From an uncultured Bacteroidota bacterium (lineage in GTDB: Bacteria > Bacteroidota > Bacteroidia > AKYH767-A > JABDAW01), in NCBI GenBank assembly GCA_903844645.1, contig CAIMUP010000096.1, positions 1-38,007 on the forward strand: a DNA stretch of 38,007 nt. Reading direction: 5' to 3'. Of the stretch, positions 5,384 through 33,541 are shown in pieces. The translations under genes and the position numbers were made by a program. Within the stretch, counting starts at the first letter, position 1; the number at the start of each line of letters is the position of its first letter. The notes under the pieces are model-generated. The model made no database searches and had not been told where the DNA came from. It saw only the letters and a list, made by a program, of their open reading frames with translations.

Positions 5384-5665
5384 TTTTGTATAATGCCCTC
5401 CGCCGTTCATCGGGAGGCTAAAAACTTTTGTATAATGCCATCCGTCGCGGGGCGGAAGGCTAAAAACTTTTGTAGGATGCCATCCGTCGCGGGGCGGAAG
5501 GGGTAAAACTTTTGTATTATGCCATCCGTCGCGGAGCGGAAGGGGTAAAACATTTGTATTATGCCATCCGTCGCGGGGCGGACGGGGCAAAACTTTTGTA
5601 TAATGCCATCCGTCGCGGGGCGGAAGCCCTTTTCCCCTTATAATCCGACGCGCGGCGGGTGAAAA
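5384..5665. repeat. 42-bp tandem array (2 x 21; array 2)
   Basis: Six 42-bp units begin with TTTTGTA at 5384, 5426, 5468, 5510, 5552 and 5594; a degraded seventh (TATAAT at 5639) extends to about 5665. Each unit has an AT-rich half (CTTTTGTATAATG) and a GC-rich half that can fold as GCCATCCGTC, loop GCGG, GGCGGAAGGC. The stem is 10 bp with one mismatch and one G-T pair, and later copies vary mainly in the loop and arm ends. A reverse-strand frame stays open as 14-residue repeats, not judged coding. It fills most of the gap between the permease gene and the acyltransferase promoter. Confidence 0.96.
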
Positions 5666-5765: not shown

Positions 5766-5849
5766 ATGAAAAAAGTTGGTGCATTTATCTTAATCGGGGT
5801 GAATGAAATGGCATCCATACCGCTGCTGAATATCTGGCATGCTGTTTAA
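5766..5849 (+). CDS. 27-codon upstream ORF
   Basis: ATG 5766 opens a 27-residue frame, MKKVGAFILIGVNEM then ASIPLLNIWHAV, whose TAA (5847-5849) lies 11 bases inside the next gene (ATG 5839). A Lys-Lys start followed by a hydrophobic stretch resembles the beginning of an exported or membrane protein. It also carries an 18-base stretch (5817-5834) repeated exactly inside the acyltransferase gene at 6178-6195, in the same reading register (IPLLNI). It could be a translated leader that couples to the acyltransferase, a remnant of an older gene start, or chance. Confidence 0.35.
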   Translation: MKKVGAFILIGVNEMASIPLLNIWHAV

Positions 5850-7275
5850 TTCGTTCGAGTTTCTTCTTTTCTTCCCTATCGTTACGGTGCTGTATTTTAT
5901 AGTGCCGCATCGCTTCCGATGGCTGCATTTGTTGGTGGCGAGCTGCGTGTTCTACATGTTTTTCATCCCGGTTTATATCCTTATCCTGTTCTTCACGATC
6001 ATTATAGATTATGTTGCCGGAATATTAATAGAACGCAGCAACGGCATCCTGCGAAAGCGGTATCTGCTGATGAGCCTCGTAGCAAATATCGGGGTGCTGG
6101 CAGTGTTCAAATATTTTAATTTCTTTATCGGGAATGTGAATACGATCTTTCTCCATTTCCATATTCTTCCTCGCGAGATACCGCTGCTGAATATCATCCT
6201 TCCTATCGGGCTTTCCTTCCATACCTTCCAGGCGATGAGCTATACTATCGAGGTTTACCGCGGCAATCAGAAGGCGGAGCATCACTTTGGGATCTACAGC
6301 CTGTATGTGATGTTTTATCCGCAATTAGTTGCCGGTCCTATCGAGAGACCACAGAACCTGCTGCCCCAGTTTCGCGAAGTACACCATATTGATTACGACC
6401 GCATGGTGGGAGGCATCGGAATCCTGCTATGGGGATTGTTTAAAAAGGTGGTTATTGCTGACCGCGTAGCTATCATGGTGAATATTGTCTATACTCATCC
6501 GGCAGATTACCGCGGAATAACGACGATCCTGACCATGGTGCTTTTCTCTATCCAGATATACTGCGATTTTTCGGGGTATTCAGACATGGCTATCGGTAGT
6601 GCAAGGGTGATGGGCTTTAAACTAATGCGCAACTTCAGTATGCCCTACGCGAGCCGCAGTATTGCCGAGTTCTGGACACGGTGGCACATCTCTCTTAGCA
6701 CTTGGTTTAAGGATTATCTCTACATCCCGTTAGGTGGTAACAAGGTATCGAAGGGGCGGTGGAGGATTAATATCATGATCGTGTTTATGATTAGCGGGCT
6801 GTGGCATGGAGCGAACTGGACCTTCTTGATTTGGGGCTTGATACACGGTGCATTCATCATTATTTCTGCGGGATTAAAACATCAAAGCCACATATCATCG
6901 AAGCATCCCCAGAGAAAGAAACATCGGCTACACACATTCGTTAATATCCTTACTACGTTCACCATAGTTACCGTGGCGTGGGTCTTCTTTAGGGCAAAAA
7001 CTATTAGTGATGCCGCGATGATGCTCAAAAATTCCCTGAAGTTATTCCCTCTGACCACTACAGTAATCCTTCAGGGCGGTTTTGGGATACTTAGTTTAAT
7101 CATTTCCTCCGCTGCGATCCTCTTTTTATTCATCGTGGAGCATAAAACAAAGGACCGTTATGAACTCTTCGAGAAAAAAAGCCAGTATACCTGGGCATTC
7201 CATGCGGTATTACTCCTCCTTATCGTTACGATGGGCATCTTCGACCATCAGTCCTTCATTTATTTCCAATTCTGA
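5839..7275 (+). CDS. MBOAT-family membrane O-acyltransferase (AlgI-like)
   Basis: A 478-residue, multi-spanning inner-membrane protein of the membrane-bound O-acyltransferase family, like AlgI or PatA, which carry acyl (usually acetyl) groups across the membrane for modification of exported polysaccharide. Family marks in order are KYFNFFIGN (about 91-99), LPIGLSFHTFQAMSYTI, the GP-IERPQNLLPQF loop (about 166-178), CDFSGYSDMAIG (242-253), FWTRWHISLSTWFKDYLYIPLGGN (split at 278-301) and ISGLWHGANWTFLIWG, with the catalytic histidine at about 323. The length is normal. The next gene starts two bases after its stop and encodes a putative SGNH partner, the usual arrangement. The ATG overlaps the end of the upstream ORF at 5766. 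The polysaccharide acylated is unknown. Confidence 0.93.
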   Translation: MLFNSFEFLLFFPIVTVLYFIVPHRFRWLHLLVASCVFYMFFIPVYILILFFTIIIDYVAGILIERSNGILRKRYLLMSLVANIGVLAVFKYFNFFIGNVNTIFLHFHILPREIPLLNIILPIGLSFHTFQAMSYTIEVYRGNQKAEHHFGIYSLYVMFYPQLVAGPIERPQNLLPQFREVHHIDYDRMVGGIGILLWGLFKKVVIADRVAIMVNIVYTHPADYRGITTILTMVLFSIQIYCDFSGYSDMAIGSARVMGFKLMRNFSMPYASRSIAEFWTRWHISLSTWFKDYLYIPLGGNKVSKGRWRINIMIVFMISGLWHGANWTFLIWGLIHGAFIIISAGLKHQSHISSKHPQRKKHRLHTFVNILTTFTIVTVAWVFFRAKTISDAAMMLKNSLKLFPLTTTVILQGGFGILSLIISSAAILFLFIVEHKTKDRYELFEKKSQYTWAFHAVLLLLIVTMGIFDHQSFIYFQF

Positions 7276-7277
7276 AG

Positions 7278-8228
7278 ATGAAAAAGCTATCCTTATACCT
7301 CCTCGTGGTCTGTAGTTTCGTGATAATTACAAGCACCATCCTCTTCAAGCTATGCAACGAAGGCTTGCGGCGTGTTCCCTTTGAGGAGTTTGGAAAACTG
7401 AACGAAATAATGGCAGGTACCACCCCGTACGACCTGCTGATTATGGGCAATTCCCGATCTCTCCTGCATGTAAGCCCATACATCCTCGATTCTGCTCTCC
7501 ATACCAATGCCTACAACATGGGTACTATTGACGGATCGCTAAATGCTGACCTCGCCCTGCTACATGCCTACCTCGACCACCACGATGCGCCGCGATATTT
7601 GCTTATGAATTTCGATTGGTGGCTACCGACCGATACCCTGATTCGAAATGAACCCTTTGATTACCCAAAATTCTACCCTTACCTCGACAATAAATGGGTG
7701 AAAAAGTACCTGATCCCACACAGCCCTCAAATGAAAAAGGTGAATACGCTGCCTTTCCTCGGATTGATTAACTACGATGATTATAAACGGACAGCCGCCC
7801 TACGGGGATGGACAAAAAGCCAGCGGACGGTGGACGTTTATAAGAAGGGATACTTCAATCGGAATGCGAAATTTACCGGTAAAGACCCCAAAGATACACC
7901 GCCGATGAAGGACTGTACATTTTCCGATGAAGGCATCCGCGAACTCGATGAATTATTCACACTTTGCAATGAAAAAAACATCACTATTTTCGTCTTCATT
8001 GCACCCGGATACCGGATTAATGAACAACTGAAAGTGAGGCAGCAAGACCGCGACCAATTGCAGCAACTAATGAAACTCCGCCACGTTGTTTTCTTCCAGG
8101 ATTATTCACTTCGCGATGAATTCCTCGCCCCTTCCTGGTACTGCGATGCCCATCATCTGAACAAGGAGGGAGCGGAATATTTCTCCCGTATAATAGCCCA
8201 CGAAATCGAGGGATTTATTCACCAATAA
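7278..8228 (+). CDS. SGNH-like periplasmic protein, partner of the MBOAT acyltransferase
   Basis: A 316-residue protein with an uncleaved-looking N-terminal membrane segment (residues 4-24) and a periplasmic body. GNSRS at 57-61 fits the block I nucleophile (Ser59 or Ser61), and DAHH at 290-293, followed by LNKEGAEYFS, fits the DxxH block V of SGNH/GDSL hydrolases, giving a possible Ser-Asp-His triad. Proteins with this layout (AlgJ, DltD, PatB types) finish acyl transfer onto secreted polymers delivered by an MBOAT protein. Its start lies two bases after the MBOAT stop, so the two are almost certainly cotranscribed and functionally linked. Assignment to a precise subfamily is not possible by eye. 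Confidence 0.75.
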   Translation: MKKLSLYLLVVCSFVIITSTILFKLCNEGLRRVPFEEFGKLNEIMAGTTPYDLLIMGNSRSLLHVSPYILDSALHTNAYNMGTIDGSLNADLALLHAYLDHHDAPRYLLMNFDWWLPTDTLIRNEPFDYPKFYPYLDNKWVKKYLIPHSPQMKKVNTLPFLGLINYDDYKRTAALRGWTKSQRTVDVYKKGYFNRNAKFTGKDPKDTPPMKDCTFSDEGIRELDELFTLCNEKNITIFVFIAPGYRINEQLKVRQQDRDQLQQLMKLRHVVFFQDYSLRDEFLAPSWYCDAHHLNKEGAEYFSRIIAHEIEGFIHQ

Positions 8229-8241
8229 GCCCCAAAAAGAG

Positions 8242-8375
8242 GGCTGAAACAGCCACATTTTTATCACTGCCAGCCACATTTTTATCGCTGCCAGCCACAT
8301 TTTTATCGTCGCCAGCCACATTTTTATCGTTCCCAGCCACCTTTTTATCGTTCCCAGCCACCTTTTTATCGCTGA
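8242..8375. repeat. 21-bp tandem array (array 3)
   Basis: Six 21-bp units begin at 8250, 8271, 8292, 8313, 8334 and 8355, core CAGCCACATTTTTATCG followed by a variable four-base end. The array opens with an inverted start of the unit: GGCTG (8242-8246), AAA, CAGCC (8250-8254). It closes with GGCGGCTTTTT (8379-8389), which can pair imperfectly with the AGCCACC of the last unit and leaves a T-run. It lies 14 bases after the SGNH gene. Confidence 0.95.
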
Positions 8376-8380
8376 TTGGC

Positions 8381-8611
8381 GGCTTTTTGGAATACTATTA
8401 TGGCGGGTATTGGTCGCGGTATGGAATTAAATAATGGTGATATGGAATTAAATAATGGTAATATTTAATTAAATTATAACGATATTGAATAAAATAAAAC
8501 AAAAACCGAAATCTACGGTCGAAGCACGACATTCAAATCAGGGGGTACGGCATTAAAAAACAGAGCTGCGGAATTCCTGAATACGAATGCCGAAATCGGT
8601 GTTTGATGGAT
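8381..8611. repeat. Highly diverged 21-bp array (array 4)
   Basis: Units start every 21 bases at 8381, 8402, 8423, 8444, 8465, 8486, 8507, 8528, 8549, 8570 and 8591. Their first six bases are GGCTTT, GGCGGG, GGAATT, GGAATT, TTAATT, TGAATA, CGAAAT, GACATT, GGCATT, GGAATT and CGAAAT. Only the copies at 8423 and 8444 are near-identical; the rest share little except an AT-rich patch near the unit start, and often GGT or GC plus TAT/AC/GC at the end. The exact register over 231 bases without an indel is the key point. No other feature was seen between here and the ssb promoter. Confidence 0.75.
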
Positions 8612-8756: not shown

Positions 8757-9185
8757 ATGTCAGGAGTCAACAAAGTTATTTTAATCGGCAACCTCGGTAA
8801 AGACCCCGAGGTTCGGTATCTCGAAGGCGGCATTGCGGTTGCCAAGATTACCCTTGCGACTAACGAATCGCACAAGAATAAAGAGGGCGTGAAGATTGAA
8901 CATGCCGAATGGCATATCGTTAATTTTTGGTGCAACGACGCGGAAACGGCGGAGAAGTATTTAAAGAAGGGGATGATGATTTATGTTGAGGGAAAAATTC
9001 GCTCCCGTACCTGGATGGATAAGGAAGGTATCAAGCGGCACAGCACCGAAATCGAGGGTGAAAAGTTTATGATCTTAGGCTCTCGCCGAGAAGAGGGCGG
9101 CGTTGCTGCCGATGTGGCTAAAGCCACTGATTCTGCGGCTTCGGCTCCTACTACCCATGATACTACTGATGATCTTCCGTTTTAA
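8757..9185 (+). CDS. ssb: Single-stranded DNA-binding protein
   Basis: A 142-residue OB-fold protein that coats single-stranded DNA in replication, recombination and repair. The start at 8757 gives MSGVNKVILIGNLGKDPEVR, the typical SSB opening; the frame is open upstream to 8661, but that part overlaps the promoter. ATG 8727 is a less likely alternative. The OB fold covers about residues 4-108, with WHIVNFWCNDAETAEKYLKKG and VEGKIRSRTW as hallmarks. It is followed by a short Ala/Thr linker and the acidic tail DDLPF that recruits partner proteins. It lies upstream of gldE-gldD, a neighbourhood common in Bacteroidota. Confidence 0.96.
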   Translation: MSGVNKVILIGNLGKDPEVRYLEGGIAVAKITLATNESHKNKEGVKIEHAEWHIVNFWCNDAETAEKYLKKGMMIYVEGKIRSRTWMDKEGIKRHSTEIEGEKFMILGSRREEGGVAADVAKATDSAASAPTTHDTTDDLPF

Positions 9186-11887: not shown

Positions 11888-12172
11888 ATTTTTTGGTTAT
11901 TGTTAGTTATATATCTTGCAAGTATAACCTTTTGGCGGGTATTGATGCTGTAAAAACCAAATATTATTCAATATTATTATTAATACCATGATAATCAGCC
12001 AAAAAACTTTCCTTCTTTTTTCTTACTCTTTCCTGAATTCCCTGTTTTAACTCCTTAATTCCTGAAAATCCCTGTTTTGGAAGAACCCGAAAAAGGTTGT
12101 TATTGACTTAAAAACAAGTGCCGATAAATATCCTAAAAACGTCATTCAGAAATCCCGTGGAGGCATCCAAAA

Positions 12173-12381
12173 TTCTCCGGAGAAAAAATATTATTCTCCA
12201 GAGAGCAGAGATTATTCTCTGGAGATTACGGATTATTCTCCGGAGATTACAAATTATTCTCCCCCGATTAAGAATTATTCTCCGGAGAAAAAGAATTATT
12301 CTCCGGAGAAAAAAGATTATTCTCCGGAGAAAAAGGATTATTCACCGGAGAGAAACTCTTTTTATCCCCCCGTTTTCGGGG
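12173..12381. repeat. 21-bp tandem array with palindromic core (array 5)
   Basis: Nine units begin at 12173, 12194, 12215, 12236, 12257, 12278, 12299, 12320 and 12341. The core is the perfect 12-bp palindrome TTCTCCGGAGAA followed by AAAGAATTA. In eight of nine copies the TCTC..GAGA symmetry (or its central part) survives even where bases changed (CTCCAGAG, CTCTGGAG). The array ends in a small hairpin AGAG-AAA-CTCT plus T-run, then CCCCG-TTTT-CGGGG (12368-12381). It lies in the 710-bp divergent gap between the genes starting at 11887 (-) and 12598 (+). The remainder (11888-12172 and 12382-12597) holds AT-rich spacer, including two CCCTGTTTT copies 30 bases apart (about 12030-12080). Confidence 0.96.
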
Positions 12382-16158: not shown

Positions 16159-16372
16159 GTTTCTGGCGTAGAGTATGGTATATGCTGGCGTAGAAACTGC
16201 AGTTTCTGGCGTAGAGTATGGTATATGCTGGTGTAGAAACTGCAGTTTCTGGTGTAGCATAAGGTATATGCTGGTGTAGAAACTGCAGTTTCTGGCGTAG
16301 AGTATAGTATATGCTGGCGTAGAAACAGTATGCGCTGACCTAAAAACTGCAGTTGCTGGCGTAGAAACTTGG
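16159..16372. repeat. 43-bp dimeric array (22 + 21; array 6)
   Basis: Units begin with GTTTCTGG or a variant at 16159, 16202, 16245 and 16288, with a degraded fifth from 16331. Each 43-bp unit holds two halves that both start CTGGYGTAG: one ends AGTATGGTATATG, the other AAACTGCAGTTT, a perfect 12-bp palindrome. The array sits in a convergent gap (15950-16412). About 75 bp on its left and 25 bp on its right are homologous to the flanks of array 7. The left flank includes a run of ten G (16055-16064) and a decayed copy of the cyclase promoter box (TACTTTCA on the minus strand, 16112-16105), with no gene for it to serve. Confidence 0.95.
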
Positions 16373-16412: not shown

Positions 16413-18404
16413 TTATAATTTATCCACAAAATACATATCCACCTCTCCTTTGTTCTTCGTTTGAATCTTGCCGCGATGAGAGCAGGTGAATTTATCTTTT
16501 ATTAATTCATAAGTAGAGCCAGAGATATTGACCTCACCTTCCTTCCCACTACTTTCCATCCGACTCGCCAAATTCACTGTATCGCCCCAAATATCATAAG
16601 CAAACTTCTTTACGCCTACTATTCCTGCTACTACCGGTCCTGTATTAATTCCAATCCGAATCTCAAATGGAAGTTCGCCTTTGGCAAGTTTTTCTTTGTT
16701 ATGATTCGCCATGAAATCACGAATCTCGATGGCTGCTTTTACAGTATCTTCGGCATGGGTTTTATTAGCAACAGGCAAGCCACCGGCACACATGTAGGCA
16801 TCGCCAATGGTCTTTATCTTTTCTATTCCATGCTTGTGAATGATGTTATCAAATGCCGAGAAACAGAAGTCAATTTCCTTGACTAATTCAGATGGAGTCA
16901 TCTTCTCACTTATCTTGGTGAAGTCCTTGAAATCAGTGAATAGAACGGTTGCTGATTCATAATCTCTTGCTTCGGAAGTACCTTTTTGTTTAAGTTCATT
17001 GGCGACTTCTGCGGGGAGGATATTTAATAAGAGTTCATCACTTCTGCCTCGCTCATATTCACTAATCTTTTTCTCCTTGCTTATTTTATTTCGTTGTTGA
17101 TAGAATACAAATGCAACGCTTATCATTCCCAACAAAGCACCTCCCATTCCAAAAATAATCCCAAGTGTTTGAGATTTATTTAAACGATCTATCTCTTGCT
17201 GGCTCTTCAATAAATCAATTTCCTTTTCCTTCTTATCCATTTCATAATTCATTTGCAGAGCCGCAGTTTTTTTGGTGTTTTCAGTATTCACCATGCTATC
17301 ACGGAAGGTGATGAAGAGTTTATAATGCTCCAATGAACCTTTGTAATTACCTATCGCAGAATCAATGACAGCAAGCTCTTCATAAGCGTCTTTTATCAAA
17401 TCCTTAGCTCCCATTTCTAATGCCAAAGAGAGTCCTTTGGTTACATATTTTAATGCCTCTGAATGCTTGCCTTGTTTCTCAAAAACAATTCCGATATTGA
17501 TCGTCGTACCACCGATTCCATTCTTATCATCTATCTCTTCAAATACCTGCAACGCTTTCAATTGGTTCACTAAGGCTTCAGGATAGTTACCTTGCAACAA
17601 GTAAATTGTTCCAAAATTTCCATACGTCATTGCAATCCCAATTCTATCTCCTATTTCTTCTTTTATTTTTTTCGCAGCCAGATAATTTTTTATTGCATCA
17701 TCATAATTGCCCAGCTTTTCATTTACCTCACCGATATTAAGATAAGATAAACTCAAACCATATTTGTCTCCGATTTCTTCCCGAATTTTCAGCGAAGCAA
17801 AATGGTTTTTTAATGCTTCAGGAAAATTTCCTTGATTGAAATAAACATTCCCGATATTGTTATACAAATTCCCTTTATTTCTCTTTCCTCCTATTTCTTC
17901 ATAGATCTTTAATGCCTCTAAAAAACTCTTTAAGGATTCGGGGTAATTGCCTTGCCGCATATATATATTCCCAATGTTTGTATAAGCAATAGCTACCCCT
18001 CTCTTATCCTTTATTTCTTCGGCAACTTTTATCGCTTGATGATAAAATTCCAATGCCTGCGGATAATTACCTTTATTCTTATTAATAACGCCCATGCTTA
18101 TGTAAGAATTTACAATTCCCTTTTTAAACCCGATTTGCTCCGAAACCGATAAACATTGTTGAGCATAATCCATAGCCTTTTCAGGATTATTACCCCAATA
18201 GTTATAGCTAAGTTCATCCAAAGTGTTCGCCTTCGCGCTATCCATCAAGGCAGTGAAATTACCTCCAAGCTCTCGCTTATGCGCCTCAAACTTTTTCAAG
18301 TCATTTTCGAGCGAGTCAATTATTTTTTGATCCTGTCCCAGGCAGTGAATAGTGAATAGTGAACAGTGAATAATGAGGAGGACGATGGTCAGGATTCTTT
18401 TCAT
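16413..18404 (-). CDS. TPR-containing membrane adenylate cyclase (class III)
   Basis: A 663-residue sensor-like enzyme. It has a signal peptide (MKRILTIVLLIIHCSLFTIHC), a periplasmic array of about eight to nine tetratricopeptide repeats (about 60-370; e.g. ALEFYHQAIKVAEEIKDKRG), a coiled linker, one membrane segment (about 411-436) and a cytoplasmic class III cyclase domain (about 480-663). Metal aspartates are in LFTDFKDFT (about 485) and TIGDAYMC (about 533). EKIKTIG supplies the Lys and YDIWG the Asp that select adenine, and NLASRME the transition-state Arg, so the product should be cAMP. The frame is open another 95 codons upstream into array 7, but ATG 18404, at the signal peptide and 25-30 bases after a promoter box, is the start. 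The ligand sensed is unknown. Confidence 0.92.
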   Translation of the reverse strand: MKRILTIVLLIIHCSLFTIHCLGQDQKIIDSLENDLKKFEAHKRELGGNFTALMDSAKANTLDELSYNYWGNNPEKAMDYAQQCLSVSEQIGFKKGIVNSYISMGVINKNKGNYPQALEFYHQAIKVAEEIKDKRGVAIAYTNIGNIYMRQGNYPESLKSFLEALKIYEEIGGKRNKGNLYNNIGNVYFNQGNFPEALKNHFASLKIREEIGDKYGLSLSYLNIGEVNEKLGNYDDAIKNYLAAKKIKEEIGDRIGIAMTYGNFGTIYLLQGNYPEALVNQLKALQVFEEIDDKNGIGGTTINIGIVFEKQGKHSEALKYVTKGLSLALEMGAKDLIKDAYEELAVIDSAIGNYKGSLEHYKLFITFRDSMVNTENTKKTAALQMNYEMDKKEKEIDLLKSQQEIDRLNKSQTLGIIFGMGGALLGMISVAFVFYQQRNKISKEKKISEYERGRSDELLLNILPAEVANELKQKGTSEARDYESATVLFTDFKDFTKISEKMTPSELVKEIDFCFSAFDNIIHKHGIEKIKTIGDAYMCAGGLPVANKTHAEDTVKAAIEIRDFMANHNKEKLAKGELPFEIRIGINTGPVVAGIVGVKKFAYDIWGDTVNLASRMESSGKEGEVNISGSTYELIKDKFTCSHRGKIQTKNKGEVDMYFVDKL
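18345..18372. repeat. Heptanucleotide repeat inside a signal-peptide region
   Basis: GTGAATA, GTGAATA, GTGAACA, GTGAATA in direct succession (plus strand), followed by the related ATGAGGA. On the coding (minus) strand this is the stretch that encodes the hydrophobic core of the cyclase signal peptide (LIIHCSLFTIHC). Seven bases is one third of the 21-bp period of the intergenic arrays. Confidence 0.85.
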
Positions 18405-18432
18405 GGCATAATTGTTTTTGTTAGTGAGGGGG

Positions 18433-18440
18433 CAAAAGTA
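18433..18440 (-). promoter_or_regulatory. -7 promoter box of the cyclase gene
   Basis: The minus strand reads TACTTTTG (18440 to 18433), a perfect TAnnTTTG, and the ATG at 18404 follows after about 25 bases of leader. Its position between the array and the gene shows that array 7 is upstream of transcription. Confidence 0.6.
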
Positions 18441-18492
18441 GAAATTCGGGATTAACTTTACGTTATAAACCCGAATTTTTACCACTGTTCCT

Positions 18493-18697
18493 GGAGCAGT
18501 GTATGGTGTACATCGGAGCAGTGTATGGTGTACATCGGAGCAGTGTATGGTGTACATCGGAGCAGTGTATAGTGTACACCGGAGCAGTGTATGGTGTACA
18601 TCGGAGCAGTGTATAGTGTACACCGGAGCAGTGTATAGTGTACATCGGAGCAGTGTATGGTGTACACTGGAGCAGTGTATAGTGTACAACGGAGTAG
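18493..18697. repeat. 22-bp tandem array (array 7)
   Basis: Nine 22-bp units begin with GGAGCAG at 18493, 18515, 18537, 18559, 18581, 18603, 18625, 18647 and 18669, with a partial GGAGTAG at 18691. The unit is GGAGCAGTGTAT followed by GGTGTACATC or AGTGTACACC; the right half contains TGTACA, and in some copies the palindrome GTGTACAC. It lies between the promoter of the cyclase gene and the stop of the S74 protein gene. Open frames run through it on both strands with a 22-residue period and are not judged coding. Confidence 0.96.
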
Positions 18698-21125: not shown

Positions 21126-21419
21126 CTTCGGTAAAAGGAAGTATCATTTCGGTAAAACACATTCGTGTTTTTGGAAAACACAGTTGTATTTTTGGAAAAC
21201 ACAGTTGTATTTTTGGAAAACACAGTTGTATTTTTGGAAAACATAGTTGTGTTTTTGGAAAACACAGTTGTGTTTTTGGAAAACACAGTTGTATTTTTGG
21301 AAAACACAGTTGTATTTTTGGAAAACATAGTTGTATTTTTGGAAAACACAATCGTCTTTGAGCCAAACACATTCGTCTTTGAGTCAAAGGAGGTATCATT
21401 TGGGTTAACGAATCCGGCA
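21126..21419. repeat. 21-bp tandem array with symmetric edge units (array 9)
   Basis: Fourteen consecutive 21-bp units begin at 21126, 21147, 21168 and so on to 21399. The nine central ones have the core TTTTTGGAAAACACAGTTGT with few changes. The edge units are variants in mirrored order: the outer pair carries AGGAAGTATCA (21126) and AGGAGGTATCA (21378), and the next pair in carries ACACATTCGT (21147 and 21357). All are in the same orientation. Reverse and forward frames remain open with heptapeptide periods (FLENTVV, CFPKIQL) and are not judged genes. Transcription to the right starts just after the array (box at 21433). Confidence 0.96.
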
Positions 21420-24715: not shown

Positions 24716-24862
24716 CGAGTCGTCATCTGGGACATCCTTGGCGTCATCTAGGAAGCCCTTGGCGTCATCTAGGAAGCCCTTGGCGTCGTCAAGGAAGTTC
24801 TTGGCGTTATCTGGGACATTCTTGGCGTCGTCTCGGACATCCCAGTTGTCATCTCGGATTCG
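24716..24862. repeat. 21-bp tandem array (array 10)
   Basis: Seven units begin at 24716, 24737, 24758, 24779, 24800, 24821 and 24842. The consensus is CTTGGCGTCATCTAGGAA with a variable 3-base end. Central copies carry AGGAAG, while copies nearer both edges carry GGGACAT or CGGACAT. The array lies in the 400-bp divergent gap between hpt and the polysaccharide export gene, outside the promoter boxes of both (24673-24680 and 24966-24994). Confidence 0.94.
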
Positions 24863-30620: not shown

Positions 30621-30840
30621 TTGATGCCAAAACTTATGGTTAGCATCAAAAGATATATGGTTTGGATCAAAAGATATATGGTTGGCATCAAAAGATATAT
30701 GGTTAGGATCGAAAGATATATGGTTCGGGTCGAAAGATATATGGTTGGCATCAAAAGATATATGGTTGGCATCAAAAGATATATGGTTTGGATCGAAAGA
30801 TATATGGTTGGCATCAAAAGATATATAGTTTCACTCCTTT
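30621..30840. repeat. 21-bp tandem array (array 11)
   Basis: Nine units begin with TATGGTT at 30635, 30656, 30677, 30698, 30719, 30740, 30761, 30782 and 30803, with a fading tenth at 30824. The consensus is TATGGTTGGCATCAAAAGAT; variation is confined mostly to positions 8-14 (GGCATCA, AGGATCG, TGGATCA, CGGGTCG). The array opens with an inverted piece of its own unit: TTGATGCCAA (30621-30630), 9-base loop, TTAGCATCAA (30640-30649), a near-perfect 10-bp hairpin. It begins 27 bases after rpe. The rest of the gap to acpP (30841-31018) holds the acpP promoter and nothing else I recognise. Confidence 0.96.
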
Positions 30841-33315: not shown

Positions 33316-33406
33316 TTCATTCAACACTATATCATAGGTGTCGAGGGCATCGTTTTGAACGATTATCCGGGGATAATAACTCCTTAATTCCTCGAAAAAG
33401 GCAACT

Positions 33407-33541
33407 GGCGGACTCATTGCGTCAGTTGGCGGAACCTTTGCGCCAGTCAGCGGAATTCTTTAGATTACTGGCGGAATCTTTGCGCCAGTCAGCGGAACTC
33501 TTTAGATAACTGGCGGAATCTTTGCGCCAGTTGGCGGAAGG
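33407..33541. repeat. 21-bp tandem array of alternating unit types (array 12)
   Basis: Units begin with GGCGG or AGCGG at 33407, 33428, 33449, 33470, 33491 and 33512, with a partial at 33533. Two types alternate, one with GAATCTTTGCGCCAGT and one with GAACTCTTTAGATAACT, so the true period is 42 over the centre. Neighbouring units form repeated palindromes ACTGGCG, 9 bases, CGCCAGT. The array lies in the convergent gap between rnc and the amidophosphoribosyltransferase gene. Confidence 0.95.

Follow-up and report, generated by a model that had tools for sequence, protein, structure and literature searches.

Can a run of short DNA units that have drifted far apart still keep its spacing, and what would hold that spacing in place? 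The question is raised by a 528-bp gap between a gene at 7278-8228 and ssb (8757-9185), within a stretch of 38,007 nucleotides (the window) that represents one contig of a 3.84-Mb Bacteroidota MAG of 143 contigs, labelled G000 here. The gap and its neighbours are laid out as follows.

5839-7275, MBOAT acyltransferase gene, preceding the 7278-8228 gene
7278-8228, plus strand, gene without a Pfam family, which stops just ahead of the arrays (ORF list, Pfam scan)
8231-8375, first 21-bp array, about six clean copies (8250-8374) and a degenerate leading copy, unit CAGCCACATTTTTATCGCTGC
8376-8419, transition between both arrays, register not established
8420-8482, second 21-bp array, clear copies, unit TATGGAATTAAATAATGGTGA
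8483-8611, drifted tail of the second array, about six units, in exact register with the second array
8757-9185, plus strand, ssb, single-strand binding protein (Pfam SSB PF00436, E 1.7e-31)

The gap is thus filled by two side-by-side arrays with different units. The first (8250-8374) is reported by TRF with period 21, 6.0 copies and 92% matches, its lag-21 identity rises to 0.93, and related arrays lie at five further sites of the genome. The second is reported at 8420-8497, with period 21, 3.7 copies, 80% matches and 0 indels. The transition between them matches the second-block unit at 0.41 at phase 0 and equally at phase 8. The start of ssb lies 146 bp past the end of the drifted tail (8611), and ssb is followed by the gene of a CNNM/CBS/CorC-domain protein, which we take to be GldE-like, and by a GldD gene.

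The preliminary description had read 8381-8611 as eleven successive 21-bp steps, and had proposed permutation controls and a Fourier analysis of A/T content. Over this range 109 of 210 positions match at lag 21 (0.52 seen, 0.28 expected), against 58.5 ± 6.5 in dinucleotide shuffles, and none of 3000 shuffles reaches the observed count. With the clear copies removed (8486-8611), 45 of 105 positions match against 28.8 ± 4.4 (0.43 versus 0.27, p = 0.001, or p = 0.007 once the best lag among 15-30 is permitted). The register is therefore not one that shuffling yields by chance. All-pairs unit identity in the tail is highest at period 21 (0.40), all remaining periods between 15 and 29 giving 0.24-0.34. 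Taken alone, the opening pair of steps (8381-8422) falls short of significance (p = 0.19), and the solid register comprises 8420-8611, which amounts to nine 21-bp steps. The Fourier analysis revealed weak W/S power at 21 bp (p = 0.035-0.05) and none at 10.5 bp.

A comparison of the tail (8483-8611) with the TATGGAATTAAATAATGGTGA consensus of 8420-8482 gave an identity of 0.50-0.52 at phase 0, against about 0.28 at other phases and a mean of 0.29 over all of them, whereas the consensus of 8250-8375 produced no phase peak in the tail. The tail does adjoin a clean array, as had been described, but its register is that of the 8420-8482 block and not of the cleaner 8250-8375 array. The statement that its units barely resemble each other was likewise too strong. 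The recurring patch of G/C-N followed by A/T-rich bases is present, as the retained GGAATT part of TATGGAATTAAATAATGGTGA and not as a sign of unrelated units. What has drifted here is the eroded, older end of one among hundreds of genus-specific intergenic satellite-like arrays. Even a decayed stretch can hold a real signal of the kind that is dropped by ordinary repeat finders.

The absence of indels over this stretch had been taken as a sign that the period is constrained. In most organisms, 1.8-11.9% of all mutations are indels (PMC8717266); in Salmonella they amount to 13% of the substitution rate (PMC9040049). The 129-bp tail, with about 50% identity to its block, has accumulated roughly 0.8 substitutions per site, for which about 2 indels are expected at an indel share of 1.8% and more than 10 at 13%; 0 are observed. 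At the lowest share, zero indels has a probability of about 0.15, and a single locus therefore cannot settle the constraint, the support for which comes from genome-wide data instead.

We further surveyed 1.04 Mb of G000, or 27% of the genome, for tandem arrays with a score of 80 or more. In this sample, 231 of 257 arrays have periods of 21, 42, 63, 84 or 126, and 221 of these 231 are intergenic and 10 genic, fractions that are approximate, chiefly in the fragmented G001 and G003, owing to the simple hexamer-scored ORF calls on which they rest. Extrapolation gives about 855 such arrays per genome. Among near-21 periods, about 96% of arrays are multiples of exactly 21, and off-by-one steps make up about 4%. 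The intergenic autocorrelation of G000 peaks at 21, 42, 63, 84, 105 and 126 (z 16-31), and the lag-21 peak persists (z 5.6) after all TRF arrays and 21-bp margins are masked. The arrays have cleaner centres and degenerate edges, agree with their own consensus at a median of 0.74, and are found alike in convergent, divergent and tandem gaps. A preference for even multiples (42 bp) was considered and is absent among arrays detected at lag 21. The window itself contains the following arrays in addition to those of the ssb gap.

221-420, 21-bp array, unit ACTCGCATACGTTCCGCCCGT (TRF)
5384-5626, 42-bp (2 x 21) array
12172-12355, 21-bp array with a palindromic TTCTCCGGAGAA core
16159-16369, 21/43-bp array, among the few off-by-one periods
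18493-18694, clean array of period 22 (9.2 copies, 92% matches), which departs from the rule of 21
21154-21388, 21-bp array
24721-24842, 21/42-bp array
30635-30830, 21/63-bp array
33406-33539, 21/42-bp array

In two congeneric MAGs, multiples of 21 account for 22 of 24 arrays (G001) and 55 of 87 (G002), whereas none were found in 122 kb of a genome of the same family (G003) or in 181 kb of other Bacteroidota. The arrays are thus pervasive, intergenic and limited to this genus among the sampled genomes. Their numbers and lengths are underestimated, because contig edges pile up at them: of the contig edges sampled in G000, 24 of 44 starts and 13 of 24 ends fall inside a 21-bp array or no more than 60 bp from one, compared with 6.5% of random spots. 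Arrays of this kind break metagenome assemblies.

No array is present in the orthologous ssb gap of G001, G002 or G003. G001 does carry, at the position corresponding to the array at 21154-21388, an array whose sequence is 68% identical (contig C90). The sampled overlap between species contains 26 comparable gaps, of which three are informative. In one orthologous pair (G002 L102:9969-10454 and G000 L133:5779-6223), both species carry 42-bp arrays; one half of the unit, AAAACGGTCGT, is conserved between them, and the other half consists of different perfect palindromes, CCTGAAATTTCAGG and TTCCAGAATTCTGGAA. This pair of gaps is a single, suggestive case.

Between arrays, it is mainly the length that is common, and the unit sequences are mostly unrelated. 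The best circular matches between units follow the shuffled distribution save for a small excess with at least 15 matches, and some of these pairs are halves of one array split by a contig end. A search across 222 deduplicated units revealed no convincing shared motif. As units of different arrays match like shuffled units, the length must be inherited or imposed apart from the sequence. A few families do recur, and the unit family of the 42-bp array at 5384-5626 is found at at least four loci of G001 (contigs C282, C273, C208 and C85).

Palindromy is a further property of the units. Seven or more of the 10 possible pairs are complementary in 56 of 186 consensus units (about 30%, against about 16 units or 9% expected) and in 25 of 79 congener units (about 7 expected); three consensus units are perfect 21-bp odd palindromes, and most units are not strongly palindromic. 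Compensatory upkeep of the dyads seemed positive in two counts (24 complementary changes against 10.5, and 0.334 against 0.256), and was dismissed on finding that neither count differs from the 1/3 that chance predicts for complementary pairs in which the two partners have both changed. Since paired changes occur only at this chance level, palindromy is a trait of array birth and not of upkeep. The symmetry also looks like a property of the DNA: RNA structure of the arrays was rejected, as there is no sense-strand preference for G-U (11 G-T against 14 A-C) and the antisense strand folds at least as well.

The fate of the units at array edges bears most directly on the constraint. In 265 arrays, flank units as distant as the tenth stay in phase 0 with the core; over this distance, identity at phase 0 drops from 0.49 to 0.31, while other phases stay at 0.25-0.26. 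Where neighbouring units match at 13-16 of 21 positions, lag 21 is seen in 4953 windows, compared with lag 20 in 164 and lag 22 in 245, on a background of about 93. Simulated decay fits these adjacent units at about 0.02 indels per substitution, which is the low end of normal, so that adjacent units alone do not prove constraint. Of the drifted flank units (those matching at 10-13 of 21 positions), just 12-20% are shifted, where a simulated ratio of 0.02 would give 50-67%. They are fitted by simulation at 0.003-0.005 indels per substitution, an estimate that applies to drifted flanks only, varies with the assumed divergence and presupposes that the flanks diverged by substitution after birth; were the units born already diverged, the ratio would say nothing about selection. 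Flank profiles summed without score classes gave an ambiguous result, since it depends on the assumed divergence. Long homopolymer runs are normally prone to indels, and the few arrays whose units contain runs of at least 6 showed no clear rise in off-length steps. A search for compensated indels inside units returned mostly simple shifts that continue into the next unit. We conclude that constraint on the array period is well supported. The preliminary description had gone further and suggested that the spacing is selected and the period functional. Its constraint stands, but selection overreaches, as a copying ruler or units born diverged would also keep the register, and of these causes we slightly favour a ruler over selection on spacing.

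The best explanation as a whole, which we put forward tentatively, is that the arrays are born and grow by a 21-bp copying ruler. The step that generates and extends them, whether copying or duplication, would have a ruler of this length built in; 21 bp corresponds to two helical turns, and the ruler might be imposed by a protein complex holding on to a single face of the helix. Seeds would preferably be palindromic sequences able to form hairpins. Older units would be shoved outward and diverge mainly by substitution, and the register would be held by the gain and loss of units in 21-bp steps only. Such a ruler explains why the length is independent of sequence, why seeds are palindromic and why periods are multiples of 21. 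We count in its support the 231 of 257 arrays at multiples of 21, the chance-level similarity of units, the palindromy beyond chance and the flank phase over 10 units. Against it stand the 22-bp array at 18493-18694 and the approximately 4% of off-by-one steps. In addition, the drifted edges should be beyond the reach of copying and are yet poor in indels, which favours a continuing constraint and counts against a ruler; the ruler alone does not account for clean old edges.

No enzyme for such a ruler was found in this genus, where the genes for Y1 transposase, HU/IHF and reverse transcriptase are ordinary, and all three were rejected as drivers. Y1_Tnp has one partial match in G000, fewer than in the array-free G003. 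A product of diversity-generating retroelements was also rejected, as G000 has no match to RVT_1 (reverse transcriptase) and the substitution spectrum is not adenine-biased. It is conceivable, although rather doubtful at present, that the genus has either a dedicated ruler that writes 21-bp steps, or a chromosome-wide nucleoprotein lattice that reads them, irrespective of sequence. If true, each genome would hold, in its hundreds of intergenic arrays, a repeat system coded by length and independent of sequence, of a kind undescribed in bacteria.

Alternatively, and in line with the earlier reading, the spacing itself may be selected. An array would then form a helically phased landing strip for a low-specificity architectural or regulatory protein that binds once per two turns, leaving the unit sequence free to drift but not the spacing. 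We regard this proposal as possible, if somewhat unlikely. It accounts for the clean drifted edges, whose 0.003-0.005 indels per substitution lie under both the 1.8-11.9% (PMC8717266) and the 13% (PMC9040049) given above, and it is consistent with a period of two helical turns, with the dyad symmetry of units and with homopolymer-bearing units that are not clearly more variable in length. A bound protein is harder to reconcile with 222 units that share no motif, with the lack of a 10.5-bp A/T harmonic, with dyads that are not kept by compensation and with the tolerance of off-by-one arrays. The arrays are moreover indifferent to the orientation of the flanking genes, and three relatives manage with an array-free ssb gap. 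Intrinsic A-tract curvature was rejected, since the second W/S harmonic (10.5 bp) is not raised in units (z -2.4).

A neutral satellite is a less probable origin. Here, an ancestral 21-bp array would have spread by recombination into many gaps, been amplified by slippage or unequal exchange and drifted, and the register would reflect a low indel rate of the lineage. Unit families common to several loci (five for the first array, at least four in G001 for the 5384-5626 unit) fit such a history, as do the cleaner centres with degenerate edges typical of satellites and the value of about 0.02 obtained from adjacent units. However, chance-level similarity combined with about 96% exact multiples requires indels to be far rarer than 0.02 per substitution, and the drifted flanks exclude this value.

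Transcription of the arrays into strings of RNA hairpins, or coding for 7-residue peptide repeats, is very improbable: array RNAs do fold better than unit-column-permuted arrays (mean z about -1.1) and 21 is a multiple of 3, but the folding advantage is found on both strands, the G-T and A-C counts give no sense-strand signal, the window has no Rfam match, the units have 4.41 open frames against 4.34 in non-array intergenic DNA (an excess over mononucleotide shuffles vanished with this better null), and a coding constraint would equally permit 18, 24 or 27.

Repeats are normally recognised by a common sequence, whereas here mainly the length is common, at hundreds of loci in three species-level genomes. 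Whether helical spacing alone can constrain bacterial DNA, or guide its copying, is now a testable question. No bacterial report of such a 21-bp tandem or direct repeat system was found in the open-licence literature searched. Plasmid iterons and ParR-type centromere repeats are direct repeats spaced by roughly one or two turns of the helix. They share the whole-turn spacing of 21 bp and its multiples and may serve as an analogue for phased binding; they differ in having one sequence, a specific protein and one locus, in contrast to hundreds of loci without a common motif and a between-array unit similarity near the shuffled null. REP/BIME elements are also intergenic and present in hundreds of copies. 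Their unit is palindromic, as about 30% of the consensus units here strongly are, against about 9% expected, while most are not. REPs have a common consensus and an associated Y1 transposase, neither of which applies to the 21-bp arrays.

The nearest known system in style is that of the archaeal Borg tandem repeats, which are similarly pervasive in one lineage, with many loci, a different unit per locus and apparently independent origins (PMC9879509). Borg units are perfect, of variable length and about half in genes (PMC9879509), whereas those described here are imperfect, of fixed length and almost all intergenic. Borg repeats show no single-base differences among units, and have varied lengths at genic and intergenic sites; the median consensus agreement of 0.74, the 231 of 257 multiples of 21 and the 221 of 231 intergenic positions depart from both rules. 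Eukaryotic satellite DNA, in our own comparison (general reference, PMC8122249), resembles the arrays in its homogeneous centre, diverged edges and higher-order multiples of a basic unit. In contrast to it, the 21-bp arrays are short and spread through the intergenic DNA of a small bacterial genome.

Cyanobacterial STRR heptamers have a fixed unit length, an intergenic location and several unit sequences per genome, but with 7-bp units and few sequences, compared with 21 bp and hundreds of sequences here. A separate heptamer repeat, AGTGAAY, is present at 18344-18376 of the window (4.7 copies) and is reminiscent of the STRR heptamers (7 x 3 = 21). It occurs at many places in the congener G002, including arrays of 37 and 53 copies (L169:4716-4973 and L099:3578-3951). 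Near the period-22 array, a gene on the minus strand (16413-18485) encodes a protein with TPR and adenylate/guanylate cyclase domains, the C-terminal part of which has many paralogous matches in G002, several of them clustered on contig C17.
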